DNA of 22,343 bases from Gemmatimonadota bacterium. Its GTDB lineage: Bacteria; Latescibacterota; UBA2968; UBA8231. The stretch is from assembly GCA_002712305.1 (NCBI GenBank), contig PATE01000045.1:92884-115226 (forward strand), read 5' to 3'. Positions 393-22,343 of this stretch are shown here, one piece after another (the stretch's first letter is position 1; each line of letters opens with the position of its first letter). Position numbers and translations under genes: made by a program. The notes beneath the pieces are model-generated. The model was not told the origin of the DNA. It saw nothing but the letters and a program-made list of their open reading frames with translations, and searched no databases.

Positions 393-436
393 TGTCATGC
401 CTCGAAAGGCATGCGTGTCTTGTTGTCATGCCTCGA
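393..436. repeat. 13-bp direct repeat and UUCG-loop hairpin at a gene junction
   Basis: The 13-mer TGTCATGCCTCGA occurs at 393-405 and again at 424-436. The second copy contains the stop codon of the permease gene. Between and into the first copy lies a perfect 7-bp hairpin (396-402 with 407-413) whose loop on the minus-strand transcript is UUCG. No T-run follows on the minus strand, so it is not a standard intrinsic terminator. It sits between the permease stop and the ribosome binding site of the OPT-like gene. An mRNA-stabilising or processing role is possible but is inference. Confidence 0.5.
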
Positions 437-3400
437 CTGCCACTTGTTCGCCAGCGAGAATCGCCGACCCCTGATCTCGGTAGGAGGACTTCGCATCTGA
501 GTCCACGGTACGCCAGATGAGGAATTGCTTCCGGATCACATTCATGAAGCGCTGATTCACTCGACGCCAGGAAGCATCCTCACCGCTGAGGCGGGTGATA
601 TCCAACTGGACCTGGAAGATGTTGTGTTCGCCCACCGGCAGAGCCCGAATCACGACGTGCTGGCTGACGCCAAGGTCAAAGGGAGCCAACCAGATGTTCA
701 TGTCGATCGTGTAACCGTCGCCCTCTGCCGTGTCCTGCCGACCCAGCTTGGCCCCATCGGTGTAGAACGTCCCGATCGACTCTTCGGAGTAGGAATCGAA
801 ATACCCGATGAGAAACACACAAAGTCCCAACACATCGTGGCCCGAAACGGTAAAGGGGAATTCGAAATGCCAACGATCCCCATCCGGCACTGGCAGCCGC
901 CAGCGCCGAGTCACATCGGGTACGGCCAATTGGGATGCCTTGCGTGATGGATACACCGTCGACAGCATGACCACGGCCATCACGAGGATGCATGACAGGA
1001 CTGCTGAAAGAGATGAGTAGTTCAGCGTAAACCCTGTCACGAGGCCCAACTCGATCAGCACCGTCGCTGTGATTTGACCGGTCAGGTAGCCGGCGACGAC
1101 GCCGAGCACGGCGTAGACACACGACTCGGCCATGAACAACCAGGCAATGTGCCCAGGGGCCAACCCCACTGAAGAATAAATGCCGATCTCACGGAAGCGC
1201 TCATACACGGATCCCATCATCGTATTGAGGACGATGAGGGCCGCGATGAGGATGGGCACGAAGAGGTTGGCCATACCGGACAGTGAGGTCATGCCAAGCG
1301 ACGAATAGATGGAGACCTTCACGAAGTCGTCGCCTGTCTCGCGAATGCCGGCAAAAAGGGTCACGGCCAAGCGCGACAGGAATTGCTCGATCTCGGCTCG
1401 TTCGTCCACGCCCTCCTGAAAACGGACGGCCACGGACTGAAGAGGATTACCCGAGCCGATATTGCGCAACGTGTGATAGGGCACCAGAAGGGTGTTGGCT
1501 GGCTCGAGGTGAACGAAGGGCTTGATGACGACCTGTGCGTCCTCCAGGCCTTGTTTCTCACGCTGCTCTTCCTCGGCGATCTCCTGGACGGCGGCACCAC
1601 CAGTGACGGCGAAATCAGCGGGTGTCATCGTCTCGTCGTCGAGATCCTTCAGCTCCTTCATGCGTTTCGAATTGATGATGCCGATGACGGTGAAGGTCTG
1701 TCCAAAGACTCTGATCTTGACCGAGCCGTCCTGCCGATCCACATCCTCCGCAGCAATATCCAACGCAGCTACCATCCCGTTGGGAAGGATACATACGCGC
1801 TCCTCCCCAGGAAGGAACCAACGGCCGGCGATCAGCGCCCGATCCAGGCCGGTGACGTCCACCTCTCCCGGTGTGAGTCCGAGCACACCTAGCGCATTGT
1901 GGGCGTTGTTGCCGTACTTGAGCTTGATGTGCGCTTTTTTCTTGTTGTCATACCAACTACGCGGAGCAATCGATGCAATGTCGCCGAAGTTGCTGTTCGC
2001 GTATTCGAGCACTGACTCTTCGAGCGGCGTCCATGCCTTGCTGCGGATCAACAGTCCTTCATACAGTCCTTCGTTGTCGCGCTCGATCTGATTGAAGCGC
2101 AACGCCGTCTGAATCGACGTAAAGGAAAGGACGGTGAAGGTCAGTAGAAGAAGTGTCAGGAAGGTGAGAGCCGTTCGCGTCTTGCGACGCTTCATGTTGG
2201 AGATGCCCAACAGAAAAGCCGTCATGGATGCACCAGCTCGACTCACATCGGTGTCATGGATCACGGCAACTTCCGTACGCAGCTTTTTCATCTGCTCGTT
2301 GAAGCGACCCGATATGATCGACATGACCAGCGCGGCAAGAACGAGAATGACAAAAGCCAACAGAATCACGAACGGATTCGATAGTTCGAAAGCAGGATGC
2401 ACGACAGAGAGGATGATCCAGATCACCAGAAAGATGGCCGCGAATCCCAGAATCTGATTCTTGATCGTTGCCGCCGTGATCAGCAGACGTTCGGCGAAGT
2501 AGGCACAGGGCAACACGAGGGCCATGAAAAAGATGATGCCCTGGATGACGTCGTTCTGTGTCGACTTCACATCCGGATAGGCCCGGGATTCCAGACCGAT
2601 CGCCGAGCGTGTGCGGCGGACGAACTCGCTCCACGTTCGGGAGGCCATGGCTTCTTCGGCCAGATCGAGTTCTTCACGTGCACGATTGTGGAGATTCGTC
2701 AGTCGCTGATTTTCGATCGAAAAACTCTTGAGTTCCTGCATTCGCGCTTCATCCAGCGTCCACATGTCTCGGGCGGCCAGATAAGATGTCTGTGCAAAAC
2801 TCGTCTGCGGTTCGATCGAATAACCGGCACCGAGGGCTTCTGCTTTGCTCTCGGCAGACACGGAGTTGAGCAGGAGCGAGCGGAATCCGAGCAGCCCAGC
2901 TCCCAGGCCCATCTTGACTTTCGTCCCCGGACGCGCGAACAGAACGCCCACAGGCTCATCCTTGGCGGATGGCCCCTCGCCGATGGTGTAGCCGTATTCG
3001 ACAGGTGACGTGTTTGTTTCGTCGAAGACGGTCACCTGCGACAACTTGGTCAGATACCGTGGATCGACGATGTCGTAGAAGTTGTAGGCCTCACAGGGGA
3101 ACAGGACGACCATCCACTCCTTGTCGCGCCAGTCCATCTTGATCAGCATCGGATACGACTCGTCACCCTGGATTCCGCGATCGGGGGCATACGTGATCCG
3201 GCCCGTTGCCGGATCCATATAGTACCCCTCGATCTGCACCTGGTTGACACGCAGCCGATTGACGAAGAAGGCCCCCTCGTCGTCGACGACTTCGAAGTAT
3301 TCTCCGCGCACACCTTTGTAGGATTTCTTCTTGCCATTGCGTACGACGGCGACCGCATCGGTACGCGCCAGATCGGGCACGATGCTGCGTCGCGGAAAGA

Positions 3401-5234
3401 CCATCGTCTTTGCCTTCAACGAGCGAAGCGTGTCCTTCAATCGCATCTTGAAATCGGGGAACAGTTCGGGGTCTTCCAGCGCCATGTGGAACATCCCCGC
3501 CAGAGCCCGGATCTGCCGGCCGAGGTTCTCGTATTGAACCTTGTCCGGCCGGTCCAGCGGCGTGTCCACCAGGAAACGGGCATCATTGACGGTGACGAAA
3601 GCCAGAGCGGGTGTGCCGGTGGTCAGCACGAGTTCGCTGTTGACGGAGATTTCCCCAGGTACAAAGGTCTCCCAGCTCTTGCCACCTTCCGGGCTGATAC
3701 CGTTCACCAGCACATCGCGGAACGTGTATCCCAGTTCGCGGCTCACCTGCCGCGAGTATCTCATGAAATTCTTGCCGAAGGGTGCGAAGTAGCGCTTGTA
3801 GTAGAAGCTGGAATTGCTGTTCCAGACCCCTAGCTCGTCGGTCTGTGAAGACAGGTCGAGGCTAACGAAGAGTTTGACATCCAGTGAATCGACTTTGGGA
3901 TCGACCCATCTTCGATAGAACCCCAGCCGCAGGTCTTCATCCTCGAGCAGCGCCTCGGCAAGTTCCTCTTCATCGTCAAAGTGCTCAGTGCGGATATCCT
4001 CACCGTCGGGGACGATGAGATCCAAGCCTTCACTGACGGGTTGAATCATCGATTCACCGCGGGCAAGAGCGTCGGCCAGGATGCTCTTTACCAGAACCGA
4101 GTCTTCATCGGCAACGTGCCGTATCAGCCCTTCCTTGCCCACGAATGTCTGGCTGCCGACGCCATAGCTGATCCCGTCGTCCCCGGCAGAGATGAATCCA
4201 TTCGCGATAGATGCTTCGACGACTCGACGAATGACCATGCGATCGATGAAGGGATCCTCATCGCGCAGGTAACGTTGGATGAAGTCGTCAATGCCCCGCA
4301 TGGCCAGATGATGGGCGGAGGTGGCCAGGAAGACGACGGATCGTGCGGGCGGATGGGCGCGGAAGTATCGTGCCAGTTCGAGTAGTCCGGTAATCCCTGC
4401 CGCCTGTTCGGCACCGGGCGCGAGGGCGGGGACCACGGACATGGCATCATAGTACGACTCGATGACGATGACGTCTTTTTGCAGCAGCGGATCGTAGCCG
4501 GGGATGAACCCGAGCACATTCCACGCGGGCTGTCGCTCCCAGTCCATTCGGTACTCGAGATGGACCTGTGAAACACCGGTGCGTGCCGCTGCCCGCAATT
4601 GATCCCCCGCCGCCTTCGTGACCCAGAAGCGGGGCAGGTCGAGGGGCATCGTCAGGAACTTGCGTTCGCCCTCGAGATAGACGGTGGAATCCGGCTCAGA
4701 AAACACGACGGCCGCCGCCCCCAAGTAGGCGCAATTGAGCCAGTTGTCGCCGGAGTTGAAGTCGAGCAAGACGACGGCGCCCTTGAGATCCAGTCCATCC
4801 AGTTCTTCATACTCGCCAGTTCCTCCGTAGAGGAGGTGACCATCGAGACCGCCATCCGGCAGGGTCGGCGTGCGAACCAGGTTTGGCCACAAGCCGTGAA
4901 GATCGATCGGTGGCGAGTCGCCTTCGACCTGCAGAAACCCACCCTTCTCGACCGGCACCGACACGTCATACTTGTGCAGGGTAATGTCATCAAGGCCGAT
5001 TTCGGTGAACTGGCGCTGTACGTAGCGTGTCGCCTGCTCTGCCCCCGGGTATCCAGTGACACGCGAATCAAGACCGGCCAGGAAACCGATGGTCTCGCGC
5101 AGCCTGCTCTCTGGGGCCAGCGCGCGCAGATCGTCGTAGTTGACGCTCGCAAAGGCCGATTGGACACCCAGCGCCAACAGCGCCGCGATTCCATACAGCG
5201 TCTGACAAATGAACGTTCGGTTACGTGGCATCAT
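426..5234 (-). CDS. Giant FtsX/MacB-type permease with N-terminal M28 peptidase-like domain
   Basis: A protein of about 1600 residues. Residue numbers here count from an alternative TTG start at 5261; I prefer the ATG pair at 5234/5231 because it gives a cleaner signal peptide, but neither has a good ribosome binding site. A hydrophobic signal segment (about 17-39) suggests export of the N-terminus. Residues about 150-215 look like a PA-type insert, and about 240-400 resemble the M28 aminopeptidase fold (GLLELARYF, SVVFLATSAHH), but the metal ligands look altered. A long unassigned region follows. About 903-985 holds several membrane helices, and about 1010-1450 is an FtsX/MacB permease with NMKRRKTRTAL and the hallmark RFREIGIYSSVGLAPGHI. 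A globular C-terminal domain ends it. Such permeases normally need an ABC ATPase, and none is in the window. Substrate and any peptidase activity are unknown. The OPT-like gene follows by 51 bp. Confidence 0.8.
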   Translation of the reverse strand: MMPRNRTFICQTLYGIAALLALGVQSAFASVNYDDLRALAPESRLRETIGFLAGLDSRVTGYPGAEQATRYVQRQFTEIGLDDITLHKYDVSVPVEKGGFLQVEGDSPPIDLHGLWPNLVRTPTLPDGGLDGHLLYGGTGEYEELDGLDLKGAVVLLDFNSGDNWLNCAYLGAAAVVFSEPDSTVYLEGERKFLTMPLDLPRFWVTKAAGDQLRAAARTGVSQVHLEYRMDWERQPAWNVLGFIPGYDPLLQKDVIVIESYYDAMSVVPALAPGAEQAAGITGLLELARYFRAHPPARSVVFLATSAHHLAMRGIDDFIQRYLRDEDPFIDRMVIRRVVEASIANGFISAGDDGISYGVGSQTFVGKEGLIRHVADEDSVLVKSILADALARGESMIQPVSEGLDLIVPDGEDIRTEHFDDEEELAEALLEDEDLRLGFYRRWVDPKVDSLDVKLFVSLDLSSQTDELGVWNSNSSFYYKRYFAPFGKNFMRYSRQVSRELGYTFRDVLVNGISPEGGKSWETFVPGEISVNSELVLTTGTPALAFVTVNDARFLVDTPLDRPDKVQYENLGRQIRALAGMFHMALEDPELFPDFKMRLKDTLRSLKAKTMVFPRRSIVPDLARTDAVAVVRNGKKKSYKGVRGEYFEVVDDEGAFFVNRLRVNQVQIEGYYMDPATGRITYAPDRGIQGDESYPMLIKMDWRDKEWMVVLFPCEAYNFYDIVDPRYLTKLSQVTVFDETNTSPVEYGYTIGEGPSAKDEPVGVLFARPGTKVKMGLGAGLLGFRSLLLNSVSAESKAEALGAGYSIEPQTSFAQTSYLAARDMWTLDEARMQELKSFSIENQRLTNLHNRAREELDLAEEAMASRTWSEFVRRTRSAIGLESRAYPDVKSTQNDVIQGIIFFMALVLPCAYFAERLLITAATIKNQILGFAAIFLVIWIILSVVHPAFELSNPFVILLAFVILVLAALVMSIISGRFNEQMKKLRTEVAVIHDTDVSRAGASMTAFLLGISNMKRRKTRTALTFLTLLLLTFTVLSFTSIQTALRFNQIERDNEGLYEGLLIRSKAWTPLEESVLEYANSNFGDIASIAPRSWYDNKKKAHIKLKYGNNAHNALGVLGLTPGEVDVTGLDRALIAGRWFLPGEERVCILPNGMVAALDIAAEDVDRQDGSVKIRVFGQTFTVIGIINSKRMKELKDLDDETMTPADFAVTGGAAVQEIAEEEQREKQGLEDAQVVIKPFVHLEPANTLLVPYHTLRNIGSGNPLQSVAVRFQEGVDERAEIEQFLSRLAVTLFAGIRETGDDFVKVSIYSSLGMTSLSGMANLFVPILIAALIVLNTMMGSVYERFREIGIYSSVGLAPGHIAWLFMAESCVYAVLGVVAGYLTGQITATVLIELGLVTGFTLNYSSLSAVLSCILVMAVVMLSTVYPSRKASQLAVPDVTRRWRLPVPDGDRWHFEFPFTVSGHDVLGLCVFLIGYFDSYSEESIGTFYTDGAKLGRQDTAEGDGYTIDMNIWLAPFDLGVSQHVVIRALPVGEHNIFQVQLDITRLSGEDASWRRVNQRFMNVIRKQFLIWRTVDSDAKSSYRDQGSAILAGEQVAVEA

Positions 5235-5289
5235 TGGTCGTAGAGGCAGGTGGGCGGACAACGCGTTGAGTTTTCAAGTTGTGATTCCT

Positions 5290-15676: not shown

Positions 15677-17249
15677 CCGGTATAAATGGGCTCGGACACA
15701 GGCCCACAACCCAGTCGACCAGCCGGCGCAGATCACCAGGAGCGATGCCGCCCGGAATCGCAGGACCCGTGGTGAAGAAGGAACTGGGCATGGTTCCTGA
15801 AATCGCGGCACTCAGGGCAGCCCCCGGGTGCATAGCCTCGTCCATCTTGGACAGCAACAGCCGGCGTGGCTGCTCTCCGTCGCAGACTTCGAGCAGGTCC
15901 AGCATGTAGTCGTATCCGGTTCGACCGTCTAACACCACCTGAACTTCATCGACGGCCGCCGTATCGAGTAGAGTTCGCAGTTGTTCTCGCTGTTTGACCT
16001 CGTGAGCGCCGATACCAGCCGTGTCGATCAAGACCAGCCGTGCGTTGGCGTGGCGTTCCAGGGCCTGGGCCAGATCGCCTGCATCGTGGGCATCCTCGAG
16101 GGGGACCCCGATGAGTTCTGCATAGGCACGTGCCTGCGCCAGGGCGCCCACGCGCTGTGTGTCGGTACTGATGATGGCGATCTCCCCTTCTGAGAAATCC
16201 GGGCGACGCTGGCGACGCTTCACGAATCCAACGGCGATCTTGGCGATGGCTGTAGTCTTGCCACTGCCCGACGGACCGACAAAGGCCACGACTTTCCGGC
16301 TTCGTCCGATGCGTAGATCCGCACGCTCGGGGAGCATTTCGTAGAGCAGCTCTGCCGCCGTTTTGACAACGGTCTCCCGGCAGTCGAGAGATTCCTCCTG
16401 GACTCGGCGCAGCACCTTGGGCAGCAGCGCGCGCGTTAGGTCCTCATTGACTCCGACCCGTCGCAGGCGCTCACCCAGTCGTGCAACTTCGGGCGGCAAC
16501 TCAAGGCTGCTGGAGTGACGTGCCATGTGGCGCATGGCATCCTCGATCTGGCGTAGACGACGCATGACGGGAGCGCCCTTGGGCTCGCTATCGTGCTGCA
16601 TACCCGCTGTTGGCTGACCGGGTACGTGATCGATGGTCTGTGCCGTAGACGTGTCGGCCGACGGCAGATGATCACGACGAGGCGTGACATTCTCAGTCTC
16701 GGCCGTTGCATCATCGTCTCTCGTCTGATCAGCCACCGAGGGCAAGCTGGCGAGCCAGGCGGCGGTCTCCGTCGTCGGAGCGCCCGTCAGTCGGTTGCGA
16801 TCCGCCCGATGGCGATCCGTCCCAAGACGATCCGTCCCTGGACGATCTGCCCCAGGACGATCTGTCAAAGAGCGCCTGGACCGTGGATCAGCCCCCAGCC
16901 CAGCAGCCCGATCCTCCGTCCAGCGCGGTCCTTGTCTCGAAGGAAGGGGTACACTTCCCCTGCTGGAGTCAGGTGGCTCGGGTGCGGATCGCGCAGGCGC
17001 GGATCGCCCATAGGTCCGTCCGAGCAGATCACCCCCACCTTGAGCAGGTGCTTCGACAGTTGCCACGGGAGCCGCAGCAGCGGTTGCCACCGGCGCACTG
17101 TCGTGGGCTGCTGTGATCTCTACGTGTTGACGCCCACCCTCCCCCGGAATCTGCCGGGTATTGAGAATGACAGCCTGGTCCCCGAGATCATCACGCACTT
17201 GGCGCAGCGCTTGCGGCACGCTCGGCGCTACGAATTTCCGGATCTTCAT
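15645..17249 (-). CDS. flhF: Flagellar SRP-type GTPase FlhF
   Basis: A 534-residue protein that marks the site of flagellar assembly and recruits early flagellar parts. The N-terminal B domain is MKIRKFVAPSVPQALRQVRD and the following VILNTR (about 1-32). A long low-complexity linker (about 50-225) includes an Asp-Arg-Pro-Gly repeat (about 129-155). The N domain (about 235-315) is followed by the G domain with P-loop GPSGSGKTT (325-333), DTQRVGA (363-369), DTAGIG (409-414) and SKMDEA (467-472). It is longer than typical members because of the linker. The ATG at 17249 lies inside flhA, overlapping it by 59 nt, and is fixed by the conserved B-domain start. AAGG lies 10 nt upstream. Confidence 0.94.
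   Translation of the reverse strand: MKIRKFVAPSVPQALRQVRDDLGDQAVILNTRQIPGEGGRQHVEITAAHDSAPVATAAAAPVATVEAPAQGGGDLLGRTYGRSAPARSAPEPPDSSRGSVPLPSRQGPRWTEDRAAGLGADPRSRRSLTDRPGADRPGTDRLGTDRHRADRNRLTGAPTTETAAWLASLPSVADQTRDDDATAETENVTPRRDHLPSADTSTAQTIDHVPGQPTAGMQHDSEPKGAPVMRRLRQIEDAMRHMARHSSSLELPPEVARLGERLRRVGVNEDLTRALLPKVLRRVQEESLDCRETVVKTAAELLYEMLPERADLRIGRSRKVVAFVGPSGSGKTTAIAKIAVGFVKRRQRRPDFSEGEIAIISTDTQRVGALAQARAYAELIGVPLEDAHDAGDLAQALERHANARLVLIDTAGIGAHEVKQREQLRTLLDTAAVDEVQVVLDGRTGYDYMLDLLEVCDGEQPRRLLLSKMDEAMHPGAALSAAISGTMPSSFFTTGPAIPGGIAPGDLRRLVDWVVGLCPSPFIPDGTAGSEVSG
16799..16866. repeat. 15-bp tandem repeat inside flhF
   Basis: Four full units and a partial fifth of a 15-bp repeat (plus strand GATCCGTCCCAAGAC and variants, starting at 16799, 16814, 16829, 16844 and 16859). 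In flhF it encodes a run of Asp-Arg-x-Gly-x pentapeptides in the disordered linker between the B and N domains. Units differ at a few bases, so the array is not freshly amplified, but it could vary in copy number between strains. Confidence 0.85.
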
Positions 17250-19302
17250 CGTCTACGAGCCTTATGACACCGACAGCGCTAACCTCCACTTCCGGCGCGA
17301 TCTCGTTGTAGGAGACCACGTAGAGTGTCGGGAACGACGCTGCCGTCAGCTTGCGGAAAGCCAGACGGATATGTGGTGCCGTGAGCACCACAGGCTGCTG
17401 GCCGTGAGCGATCATTCGATCGATAAGAGAGGTCATGTTGCGGAAAACGCGGGTCGCTACCTCAGGAGCGATGGCCACGGTGAGTCCCGCCGGTGTTGCC
17501 TGGACGGACTCCTTGATGATTTCCTCGATGTCGCCGGAGATGGTGAGTACGGCGATCCCATCCTCCGGTGCTTCTTTCAGCAGGACATTGCAGATGGAGC
17601 GACGAAGGGCCGTGCGAGAGTATTCTGTCAACACCTCCACGTCCTTGATATCGCTGTAGTCGGCGAGGGTTTCCAGAATGGTGCGGAAGTCTCGAACCGG
17701 CACCCGTTCAGAGAGCAGATTCTGCAGCACACGCTGCAGACGCCCCACGGGTACCACATCTGGAATCAGCTCGTCGATGATGGCCGGATGGGAACTGCGG
17801 AATTCATCGACAAGATGCTGTGTTTCCTGACGTCCGAGCAGTTCAGCCGCATTGGCATTGATCACTTCGGTGATGTGCGTCGCCAACACAGCAACCGGCT
17901 CAACGACATTGTAACCGAGCAGTTCGGCCTTTTCGCGCTGGTCGGCGGCGATCCAGCGTGCAGGAAGACCGAAGGCAGGATCGATGGTCTCCGTCCCCTC
18001 TACGGGGCCCTCGGCGATGCCCGGATCGATGGCCAGCAGAGCCTTTGCCTGCAGTTCGCCTCGAGCGACGGGATCACCCTTGATCTTGATCTGATATTCA
18101 TTCGGCTTCAACTGAACGTTGTCGCGCACACGGACAGGCGGCACGATGAAGCCCATCTCCATGGCCCCCACCTTGCGGATCTGAACGATGCGCTTGATCA
18201 GGTCACCGCCTTGTTTGGCGTCGACAAGAGGCACCAGCTGGTATCCGATTTCACATTCGAGTAGATCGACGCGCAGATAGTCCTCAGGACGCTCCTCTGG
18301 TCGCTTCTGTTCGACGCGCTCGGCTTCCTCTTCCGCCTCCTTGCGCTTGCCCATGTAGCTGACGGCGGCAGCCAGTCCGGTCAGACCACTGCCCACCAGC
18401 AGGAAGGGCCACGTCGGCAATCCGGGAATCAGACCAAGTCCGACCAGCATGGGACCGGCGATGAAGGCCGCCTGTGGCCTTCCTGTCAGCTGACGATTGA
18501 TGTCCGATCCCATGTTGTTGTCGGAGGCGTGACGCGTGACGATGATGCCTGCCGCCGTGGAGGTAATCAGCGCAGGAATCTGTGTAACGAGACCATCTCC
18601 GACGGTCAGCAGTGTATAGGTGGACATGGCATCAGCCAGGCTCAGATCTCGCTGCAGGACGCCAATCGCGAAGCCACCGATGATATTGATGAGCGTGATC
18701 AGAATACCTGCGACGGCATCACCTCTGACGAACTTGCTCGCACCGTCCATGGATCCGTAGAAGTCGGCCTCGCGAGAGATATCCTCGCGACGCTGGCGTG
18801 CCTGCGCTTCGTCGATGAGTCCGGCGTTCAGATCTGCATCGATCGCCATCTGCTTGCCGGGCATGGCGTCCAAGGTGAAACGCGCCGCCACTTCGGCGAC
18901 ACGACCCGCACCCTTTGTGATCACGACGAACTGGATGATGATAACGATGGCGAAGATGATGAAACCGATGATGTAGTTACCACCAACCACCACATCACCG
19001 AACGCGTCGATGAGAGATCCCGCATTCGCCTGGCTGAGAATCAACCGAGTCGAGGCCACATTCAGCGACAGCCTGAAGAGGGTCATGACCAGCAGCAGCC
19101 CAGGGAATACCGACAGTTCGAGAGGCGCTGCGATGTAGAGGGTGAGCATGAGCACGAGCAGGGCCGCGCTGATGTTGATCGTCAGCAGAAAGTCCATGGC
19201 GTACGTCGGCAACGGCACGATCATCACCCCGAGGATGACGACGACACCGAAGGCCAACATGACGTCCGAGTGCTTGGCGATCGCTTTGAAAAAGCTGCTC
19301 AC
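17191..19302 (-). CDS. flhA: Flagellar export gate protein FlhA
   Basis: A 703-residue FHIPEP-family protein that forms the cytoplasmic ring of the flagellar type III export apparatus. Eight membrane helices are expected in residues about 15-320; conserved stretches include LPTYAMDFLLTINISAALLV, the LFRLSLNVASTRLIL segment, TKGAGRVAEVAARFTLDAMP and GDAVAGILITLINIIGG. The soluble C-terminal domain (about 350-685) docks export substrates and chaperones. The GTG at 19302 has GGGAG upstream and is 20 bp from the flhB stop. The last 19 codons overlap flhF. Length and motifs are normal. Confidence 0.97.
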   Translation of the reverse strand: MSSFFKAIAKHSDVMLAFGVVVILGVMIVPLPTYAMDFLLTINISAALLVLMLTLYIAAPLELSVFPGLLLVMTLFRLSLNVASTRLILSQANAGSLIDAFGDVVVGGNYIIGFIIFAIVIIIQFVVITKGAGRVAEVAARFTLDAMPGKQMAIDADLNAGLIDEAQARQRREDISREADFYGSMDGASKFVRGDAVAGILITLINIIGGFAIGVLQRDLSLADAMSTYTLLTVGDGLVTQIPALITSTAAGIIVTRHASDNNMGSDINRQLTGRPQAAFIAGPMLVGLGLIPGLPTWPFLLVGSGLTGLAAAVSYMGKRKEAEEEAERVEQKRPEERPEDYLRVDLLECEIGYQLVPLVDAKQGGDLIKRIVQIRKVGAMEMGFIVPPVRVRDNVQLKPNEYQIKIKGDPVARGELQAKALLAIDPGIAEGPVEGTETIDPAFGLPARWIAADQREKAELLGYNVVEPVAVLATHITEVINANAAELLGRQETQHLVDEFRSSHPAIIDELIPDVVPVGRLQRVLQNLLSERVPVRDFRTILETLADYSDIKDVEVLTEYSRTALRRSICNVLLKEAPEDGIAVLTISGDIEEIIKESVQATPAGLTVAIAPEVATRVFRNMTSLIDRMIAHGQQPVVLTAPHIRLAFRKLTAASFPTLYVVSYNEIAPEVEVSAVGVIRLVDDEDPEIRSAERAASAAPSA

Positions 19303-19322
19303 GGGTCTCCCGATCTCCTATA

Positions 19323-20405
19323 TCAAACGTTGGCCGTCGTGCTCTGACGACGCTTCAGTTGGAAGACGAAGGCCAGGACCTCCGCTGTAGCGCGGAACAG
19401 CTCTTCGGGAATCTGTTCGCCGATCTGGACAGCCTTGAACAACGCCCTCGCAAGAGGCTTGTTCTCGACCAGAGGCACCCCTGCCTGTCGCGCGAGTTCC
19501 TTGATCCGTTGCGCCACCAGCCGTTGGCCCTTGGCCAGCACCACTGGTGCGTTCATGCTCTCCGTGTCGTATTTGAGTGCGATCGCAACGTGAGTCGGGT
19601 TGGTGACAACCACGTCTGCCTCGCCCACATCCGACATCATTCGTTGCTGTGACATCTCGCGCTGAAGCGACCGAATGCGCGAGCGAACCATGGGATCGCC
19701 TTCCTGCTGCTTGAGCTCTTCTTTTACTTCCTGCTTCGTCATCCGAAGATTCTGCTCGTAGTCGAAACGCTGGAAGGCGTAATCCAGGATCGCCATGAGC
19801 AGCAGCAGCAGCACGAGCCGAACGCCGAGGGTCAGGATCAGATCGGAGCTGAAACCGAAGATCTGAGTCACCTCCATGTGCATGTAGGCCAACACCCCGT
19901 CGGCCTCCGATGTCATGGTCAGATACGTCACCACGCCGACGACGAAGACCTTGAACAGGCCCTTGGCCAGTTCAACCAGGCCTTTCTTCGAGAAGATTCG
20001 CTTGAGACCGCTGAAGGGACTGATGCGATCTGCTTTGGGCATCAGTGGTTTCCCCGTGAAGATGATCCCCACCTGGGCCACATTGACCAGCGTTGCCACG
20101 ACAAACAGGAATACCATCATAGGCGCCACGATCAGGGCGAAGTCATTGATCCAGCTCATCATGTGCGCCGGTGCCGAGATTGCATCGAGGTTGATGGCGT
20201 ACCCCTCAGTGAACGTTCTCACCATCACCCCCTGCAGTCCCCCCATCATCCAACCACCCACCCCCCACAGAGCCAACAGACCGGCTGCGAGGATCGCCAC
20301 CGAGGACAGTTCGGCACTTCGTGCCACCTGCCCCTTTTCGCGGGCGTCGTCGCGACGCTTCGGCGTCGCCTGCTCTGTCTTTTCCTGGAAGGATTCTTCA
20401 GCCAT
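19323..20405 (-). CDS. flhB: Flagellar export switch protein FlhB
   Basis: A 360-residue protein that controls the change of substrate class during flagellar export. The N-terminus EKTEQATPKRRDDAREKGQV is the typical amphipathic start. Four membrane helices follow (about 35-55, 88-110, 142-165, 185-208). The cytoplasmic domain carries the self-cleavage site NPTH at Asn269-Pro270, with TNPTHVAIALKYD intact, so autocleavage is expected. It begins 9 bp after fliR and ends 20 bp before flhA. Nothing unusual was seen. Confidence 0.97.
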   Translation of the reverse strand: MAEESFQEKTEQATPKRRDDAREKGQVARSAELSSVAILAAGLLALWGVGGWMMGGLQGVMVRTFTEGYAINLDAISAPAHMMSWINDFALIVAPMMVFLFVVATLVNVAQVGIIFTGKPLMPKADRISPFSGLKRIFSKKGLVELAKGLFKVFVVGVVTYLTMTSEADGVLAYMHMEVTQIFGFSSDLILTLGVRLVLLLLLMAILDYAFQRFDYEQNLRMTKQEVKEELKQQEGDPMVRSRIRSLQREMSQQRMMSDVGEADVVVTNPTHVAIALKYDTESMNAPVVLAKGQRLVAQRIKELARQAGVPLVENKPLARALFKAVQIGEQIPEELFRATAEVLAFVFQLKRRQSTTANV

Positions 20406-20414
20406 TCCGGACCA

Positions 20415-21185
20415 TTAGTGCATGAAATCGACCATGACCAGCATATCGCGGCGCATGGTGATGATGAGTCGCTCTACGAGCATCGCGAACAAGGGCATGC
20501 AGACCAGGAATGCCCCGAGCCCTACGCTGATCTGAACGGGAAATCCGACCATGAAGACGTTCATCTGCGGCACGGTTCGAGCCAGCACACCCATGGCTGC
20601 CGTCACCAGAAAGAGAGCTGTCATGATCGGTGCGGCGATCTTGACGCCGATGATGAACACCTCGGCCGTGATGGCGATCATTTTCTGCATGAGCCCCGCC
20701 TTGAGCACGACACCACCGAGAGGGATCGTCTCGAAACTCGTGACCAGAGCGGTCAGAATCGTGTGGTGGCCATTCAGACTCAGCAGCAGCAGGATCGCCA
20801 GGATGTTGAGGAACTGCCCCATAATGGACAGCTGATTGGAAGACTGCGGATCGATGACGTTGACGATGCCGAACCCCATCTGAAGGCCCGCCACTTGTCC
20901 GGCAAACTGAATGCCCACGAACAACAGCAGAACCACAAAACCCATCACCACGCCCATCAGTACTTCCCGGATCATCATCAGCGCGTAAGGCAGTATGCCG
21001 GCTGGCACATCAAGGGGCTGGTCCGCGACGATCGGAAACAGGATGATGGAAACCGTAAACGCGAGACCCACCTTTGCCCGAGCTAACCACGTACGATGCC
21101 CGAAGATGGGAGCGACCATCAGCAGGGCACTGACTCGTAGCAGCACCAGGAGAAAGATGTGAAACTGGTCCAGCCAGTATTCCAC
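20415..21185 (-). CDS. fliR: Flagellar export gate protein FliR
   Basis: A 256-residue integral membrane protein of the FliP-FliQ-FliR gate. It begins with a WLDQFHIFLLVLLRVSALLM segment and includes APIFGHRTWLARAKVGLAF and GFGIVNVIDPQSSNQLSIMG, all typical of the family. The GTG at 21185 is 9 bp after the fliQ stop, with a purine-rich AGGCGG in the gap. Length is normal. Confidence 0.96.
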   Translation of the reverse strand: MEYWLDQFHIFLLVLLRVSALLMVAPIFGHRTWLARAKVGLAFTVSIILFPIVADQPLDVPAGILPYALMMIREVLMGVVMGFVVLLLFVGIQFAGQVAGLQMGFGIVNVIDPQSSNQLSIMGQFLNILAILLLLSLNGHHTILTALVTSFETIPLGGVVLKAGLMQKMIAITAEVFIIGVKIAAPIMTALFLVTAAMGVLARTVPQMNVFMVGFPVQISVGLGAFLVCMPLFAMLVERLIITMRRDMLVMVDFMH

Positions 21186-21194
21186 CGGATCCGC

Positions 21195-21464
21195 CTAACC
21201 GATCAGTGTCGGGATCGCCGACAGAAGATTGATGGTGAAGTCGATCATTCGCTGCATCATCCAGGGCAACATAAGAATGATCGTCGCCCCTACGGCGATG
21301 ATTTTCGGAATGAAGGTCAGGGTCATCTCATGCACCTGGGTCACCGCCTGAAAAATGCTGACACCCAGACCGACAACCAGAGCAACGATGAGCACCGGCC
21401 CCCCCACGTAGAGGATGAGGGTCAGCACTTCCTGACCGAGTTTGATGATGAAGTCAGGACTCAC
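21195..21464 (-). CDS. fliQ: Flagellar export gate protein FliQ
   Basis: An 89-residue protein with two membrane helices (about 15-38 and 50-75), the usual size and layout. The QAVTQVHEMTLTFIPK segment between them is characteristic. It packs with FliP and FliR in the export gate. The GTG at 21464 has AAAGG 9 nt upstream, in the 11-bp gap after fliP. Confidence 0.96.
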   Translation of the reverse strand: MSPDFIIKLGQEVLTLILYVGGPVLIVALVVGLGVSIFQAVTQVHEMTLTFIPKIIAVGATIILMLPWMMQRMIDFTINLLSAIPTLIG

Positions 21465-21475
21465 GATCTAAACCT

Positions 21476-22343
21476 TTAGTTGAAGGACTTCACAAGGGAC
21501 TGGACGACAAGATTCCAACCATCCACCAGGACAAAGAGCAGAATCTTGAAGGGCAGAGAGACCATGATCGGCGGCAACATCATCATACCCATCGACAGCA
21601 GGATGCTGGACACGACCAGATCGATGACGAGGAAGGGAATGAAGAGGATGAAGCCGATCTGAAATGCTGTTCGTAGTTCGCTGATGATGAAGCTCGGGAT
21701 CAGGACCGAATTCGGAATCTCCGAACGGTTTGCAGGTTGCGGCATGCGCGCCAGGCGCATGAACAAAGCCATGTCCTTCTGCCGGGTCTGCTTCATCATG
21801 AATTCGCGGATCGGTTCCATGCCGCGATCGAGGGCCTCCTGATAGGGGATCTCATCCTCGATCAGTGGCTGGATCGCATTGTCGTTGACACGCTCCCACA
21901 CCGGCGCCATGACGAAGAAGCTCAGAAACAGAGCCAGGCCGATGATGAGCTGGTTTGGCGGCATCTGGCCGTTGGTACCGATCGCCTGTCGAAGAAAGGA
22001 GAGGACCACGACGATGCGTGTGAAAGAGGTCATCATGATCAGGATCGACGGTGCCAGAGACAAAATGGTGAGCAGAAAGATGATCTGTAGTGACACGGCT
22101 GCGTCACCACCATTCTGAGCATCCTCTAGCTGAAGGCTGATCTTTGGCAGGCCCTGGGCATCGACGGGCTGCGCGCCGCGCACCATGTAGCCGTTGACGA
22201 AGCTCGTCGGCGTACCGCGCGCGCCCACCTTGGTGGCCAGCGCCTGGTCACGCTTGATCTGCTCCTCACCGGCGCCGTCAGCCATGAACTTCTTGAACTT
22301 CTTCATGTTCAACTTGAGGTCCGTGGCGTACTTCTCCAGGTCT
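21476..22343 (-). CDS. fliP: FliP joined in frame to the C-terminal part of a DsbA-like protein (5' end outside window)
   Basis: The frame stays open to the right edge. Residues encoded from about 22156 down to 21476 (226 residues) are Fli[53 protein letters not shown], and [17 protein letters not shown] are family hallmarks. FliP forms the export gate with FliQ and FliR. Native FliP starts with a cleaved signal peptide of about 20 residues; here that part is missing and the frame instead continues into a thioredoxin-fold sequence encoded by 22157-22343. No ATG lies between the junction and the first FliP helix; a GTG at 22096 is the only likely internal start and would give a protein without signal peptide. 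Whether the fusion exists in the cell or comes from assembly is open. Confidence 0.85.
22157..22343 (-). other. DsbA-like thioredoxin-fold segment fused ahead of FliP
   Basis: The 62 codons visible here encode the C-terminal part of a DsbA-family domain: a Lys-rich helix ([10 protein letters not shown]), then [20 protein letters not shown] with the cis-proline Thr-Pro characteristic of the fold, and [13 protein letters not shown], the usual strand and turn before the last helix. The last helix is lacking; FliP sequence starts instead. The CXXC active site would lie beyond the window. By hand count 57 of 62 codons end in G or C, against 43 of the next 64 FliP codons, so this piece has different codon use from its neighbour. 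Confidence 0.75.

Follow-up and report, generated by a model that had tools for sequence, protein, structure and literature searches.

The window analysed in this study, a stretch of 22,343 nt, spans G000:C66:92884-115226, and as contig C66 is 115,226 bp long, window and contig end on the same base. At this end, a single stop-free frame of 288 codons runs from 22342 to 21476 on the minus strand, and two protein families were detected in it. Frame residues 90-283 matched all of FliP (PF00813, Pfam, E 5.5e-84), and the TIGR01103 fliP profile was matched over positions 1-197 of 197 with 295.1 bits against a cut-off of 217.45 (E 2.4e-88). Frame residues 2-61 matched PF01323 (DSBA, Pfam, E 1.2e-9), passing the curated cut-off with 38.6 vs. 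25.6 bits, over profile positions 125-184 of 191 only. The original prediction, that a DsbA-like C-terminal segment leads into FliP without a stop, was borne out by this frame and these matches. Downstream of fliP lie fliQ, fliR, flhB, and flhA, so that fliP-fliQ-fliR-flhB-flhA form the usual gene order. The features are as follows:

22178..22343, minus strand: DsbA-like foreign tail (PF01323 from position 125 on; 10/56 DNA identity to the fliP leader of a relative; GC3 0.927)
22157..22177, minus strand: junction zone of 21 nt, encoding GAQPVDA (16/21 identity to L068 fliP; compared with both DsbA and FliP relatives)
21476..22156, minus strand: mature part of fliP, complete to the stop codon (PF00813, TIGR01103; 94% protein and 84% DNA identity to L068)
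17191..21464, minus strand: fliQ-fliR-flhB-flhA, a flagellar export cluster in normal order (PF01313, PF01311, PF01312, PF00771)

At the other end of the window, one frame of 1611 residues (426-5261, minus strand) combines M28-type peptidase, MacB-type periplasmic, and FtsX permease domains (PF04389, PF12704, PF02687).

The closest relative, L068, belongs to the same genus and carries the region on an intact 264-kb contig, where fliM, fliN, and fliO are followed directly by a 252-residue fliP that starts with an ordinary signal peptide (MASSRWITVFAMLAMLTIAAAQPIDA) and continues into mature FliP; contig G001:C101, also of the same genus, equals that of L068 in length and in its sequence at this place. 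The FliP of the window is 94% identical to that of L068 in protein sequence, and in ungapped alignment 569 of 678 nt of the mature fliP (84%) and 16 of 21 nt at 22157-22177 were identical, while upstream of 22177 the identity fell to 10 of 56 nt, which is chance level. These results indicate that the mature fliP part is genuine and that the signal-peptide start of the gene was lost at the junction; in this contig, the window FliP lacks an N-terminal signal peptide of its own and has DsbA-like sequence in its place.

According to the original prediction, such a protein could be a true fusion, in which an exported DsbA-like domain, cut before its last helix, is joined to mature FliP and replaces the signal peptide. 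The frame that stays open through the junction, the significant matches to both families, and a topology that would be compatible with export all speak for it, as does the position of the junction near the signal-peptide cleavage site, given that the signal peptide of Salmonella FliP (Met-1 to Gln-22) is cleavable (PMC5542437). However, no relative carries it, those of the same genus included: the phylum yielded 22 further full-length FliP proteins, ranging from members of the same genus to more distant ones, and all 22 were without a DsbA part, so the search for the same fusion in related genomes that accompanied the original prediction came out against it. In those FliP relatives whose N-termini were read through, an ordinary hydrophobic leader came before the mature part and fliO in most cases lay directly upstream, in agreement with the cleaved Salmonella leader (PMC5542437). 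A normal FliP with its own signal peptide in relatives had also been named beforehand as an outcome that would tell against the fusion, and this was found in every relative examined; the replacement of the signal peptide by a fusion is thus not supported. G465 has a 411-residue FliP frame, considered as a further fusion and rejected because its leader is not DsbA but a normal signal peptide, with open frame ahead of it.

The sequence at the junction was then compared with both families. The window reads GAQPVDA, followed by QGLPKISL of FliP, and the L068 leader ends in AAAQPIDA, so that the end of its signal peptide, AAQPIDA, is comparable to the GAQPVDA of the window. In DsbA-type relatives the GAQP motif is followed by xxxF and then by the last helix (...GTPAFFINGRRLTGAQPFSAFQQIIDDELERL); at the very place where the window switches to FliP, they have GAQPxxxF plus this helix (...GAQPFSAFQQIIDDEL). 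FliP had been predicted to begin at about 22157, which needs correcting: the homology to FliP begins about 21 nt further upstream, at 22177, and GAQPVDA is common to the homology of both families. As judged by these alignments, the 21 nt encoding GAQPVDA suit, in one and the same reading frame, both DsbA with its GAQPxxxF motif and the place where a FliP signal peptide ends, and the join falls within this in-frame microhomology. Because both genes encode nearly the same peptide in the same frame, the frame would remain open across the join, and no selection for a fused protein is needed, which counts against a real fusion. The absence of the last helix from the DsbA domain, correctly noted in the original prediction and confirmed by the relatives that carry the helix after GAQPxxxF, is likewise explained by a false join falling at GAQPVDA.

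Codon use was assayed on the two sides of the junction. GC3 was 0.919 (57/62) over the 62 codons on the DsbA side vs. 0.749 for the FliP part, in line with the sharp change described earlier; for the 55 codons that precede the shared stretch it was 0.927. Among 584 windows of 62 codons sampled from the other genes of the window, none reached a GC3 of 0.90 (maximum 0.887, mean 0.70). The tail is therefore compositionally foreign, its GC3 being above all 584 sampled windows. Its sequence is also distant from the DsbA-like genes of its own genome and of relatives: the nearest in its own genome, on C7, is 36-37% identical to the tail, the nearest in the same family is about 40% identical, and none is close in the genus or phylum. 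The PF01323 genes of the own genome on C7, C64, and C78 were rejected as sources of the tail, being distinct paralogues of which the nearest is the 36-37% identical one; that on C64 (17310-17860, L135) lies near a contig end and has a start that is not clear in one frame. Similarly, the own genome plus 60 relatives contained no close donor, and searches of plasmids, of viral contigs, and of solved structures gave no match to the DsbA segment. Neither 395 genomes of one other phylum (best 46% identity over most of the segment) nor a 9-genome phylum yielded a close donor, a weak negative, as in-depth sampling was limited to one other phylum. The missing donor gene counts against a chimera; a DsbA part that is compositionally foreign and without its terminal helix counts against the fusion.

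The purely DsbA-like part, 22178-22343, makes up only the final ~165 bp of the contig, about the length of a single short read. Inside the contig, the DsbA-like segment has neither a CXXC nor a signal peptide nor the context of a start codon, and the active-site CXXC part of the domain would fall beyond the contig end. In addition, comparison with the L068 DNA did not recover the native fliN-fliO region from this assembly, the contig being broken there. A fliM-like gene on C48 was tried as the other half of the operon and rejected, since it encodes a divergent FliM and no fliN, fliO, or fliP follows it. This gene (C48:271-1374, L132) lies near the start of its contig, and its product is 60% identical to L068 FliM in protein sequence; it may be a paralogue, what is left of a second flagellar cluster, or the result of a binning error.

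A position exactly at the contig end is a further point against a real fusion, and a lineage-specific DsbA-FliP protein that equips the flagellar export gate with a periplasmic oxidoreductase domain, as read from these sequences, would be most improbable. We consider it just as improbable that a real and recent rearrangement took place in the strain, by illegitimate recombination at the 21-nt microhomology, disrupting fliP and leaving a joined protein without function. The microhomology at the junction would suit such an event; however, the donor dsbA is not of the kind found in the own genome or genus, and a breakpoint within about 165 bp of the contig end is what an assembly error is expected to give.

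Taken together, the contig end, the loss of homology at the microhomology, the normal FliP in relatives, and the foreign composition favor a chimera, and the DsbA-FliP junction is very probably a chimeric contig end and not a gene fusion. The original prediction leaned slightly this way, and the normal FliP of the relatives and the location of the segment at the physical contig end now argue for it strongly. A short foreign segment at the contig end, sequence shared at the joint, and altered composition, by which such chimeras are recognized, were all found. That chimeric contigs or reads give rise to mis-assembled contig ends has been described (PMC4270193). In the present case, about 165 bp from an unrelated gene of the dsbA type would have been appended to the contig beyond the 5' part of fliP, perhaps because the assembler followed a short shared word, or through template switching or a chimeric read. 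The bridge would be the stretch of about 21 nt that encodes nearly the same peptide (GAQPVDA) in both genes, making the join automatically in frame. We infer that in the real genome fliP is of the ordinary kind, adjoining fliO and encoding a cleavable signal peptide of its own.

A join that happens to lie within coding microhomology, in this case GAQPVDA, can thus let a chimeric contig end pass for a convincing in-frame fusion protein. We advise against entering the 288-residue product in databases under the name of a DsbA-FliP fusion and recommend trimming the final ~165 bp of the contig.

Compared with known systems, the window shares with FliP (PF00813, TIGR01103), the flagellar type III export gate protein, the whole mature protein and the gene order, but differs in that DsbA-like sequence stands in for the signal-peptide coding part at the contig end. 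With the DsbA-like thioredoxin domain (PF01323), it shares the helix, the cis-proline loop (GTPTSFVNG), and the GAQP motif of the C-terminal third, whereas it has only profile positions 125-184, lacks the last helix, and is at most 46% identical over most of its length to the relatives found. A third likeness is to chimeric metagenome contig ends (PMC4270193), in which a short foreign tail is likewise joined to the contig end at a short shared sequence, an origin that in the present case is deduced from the assembled sequence.
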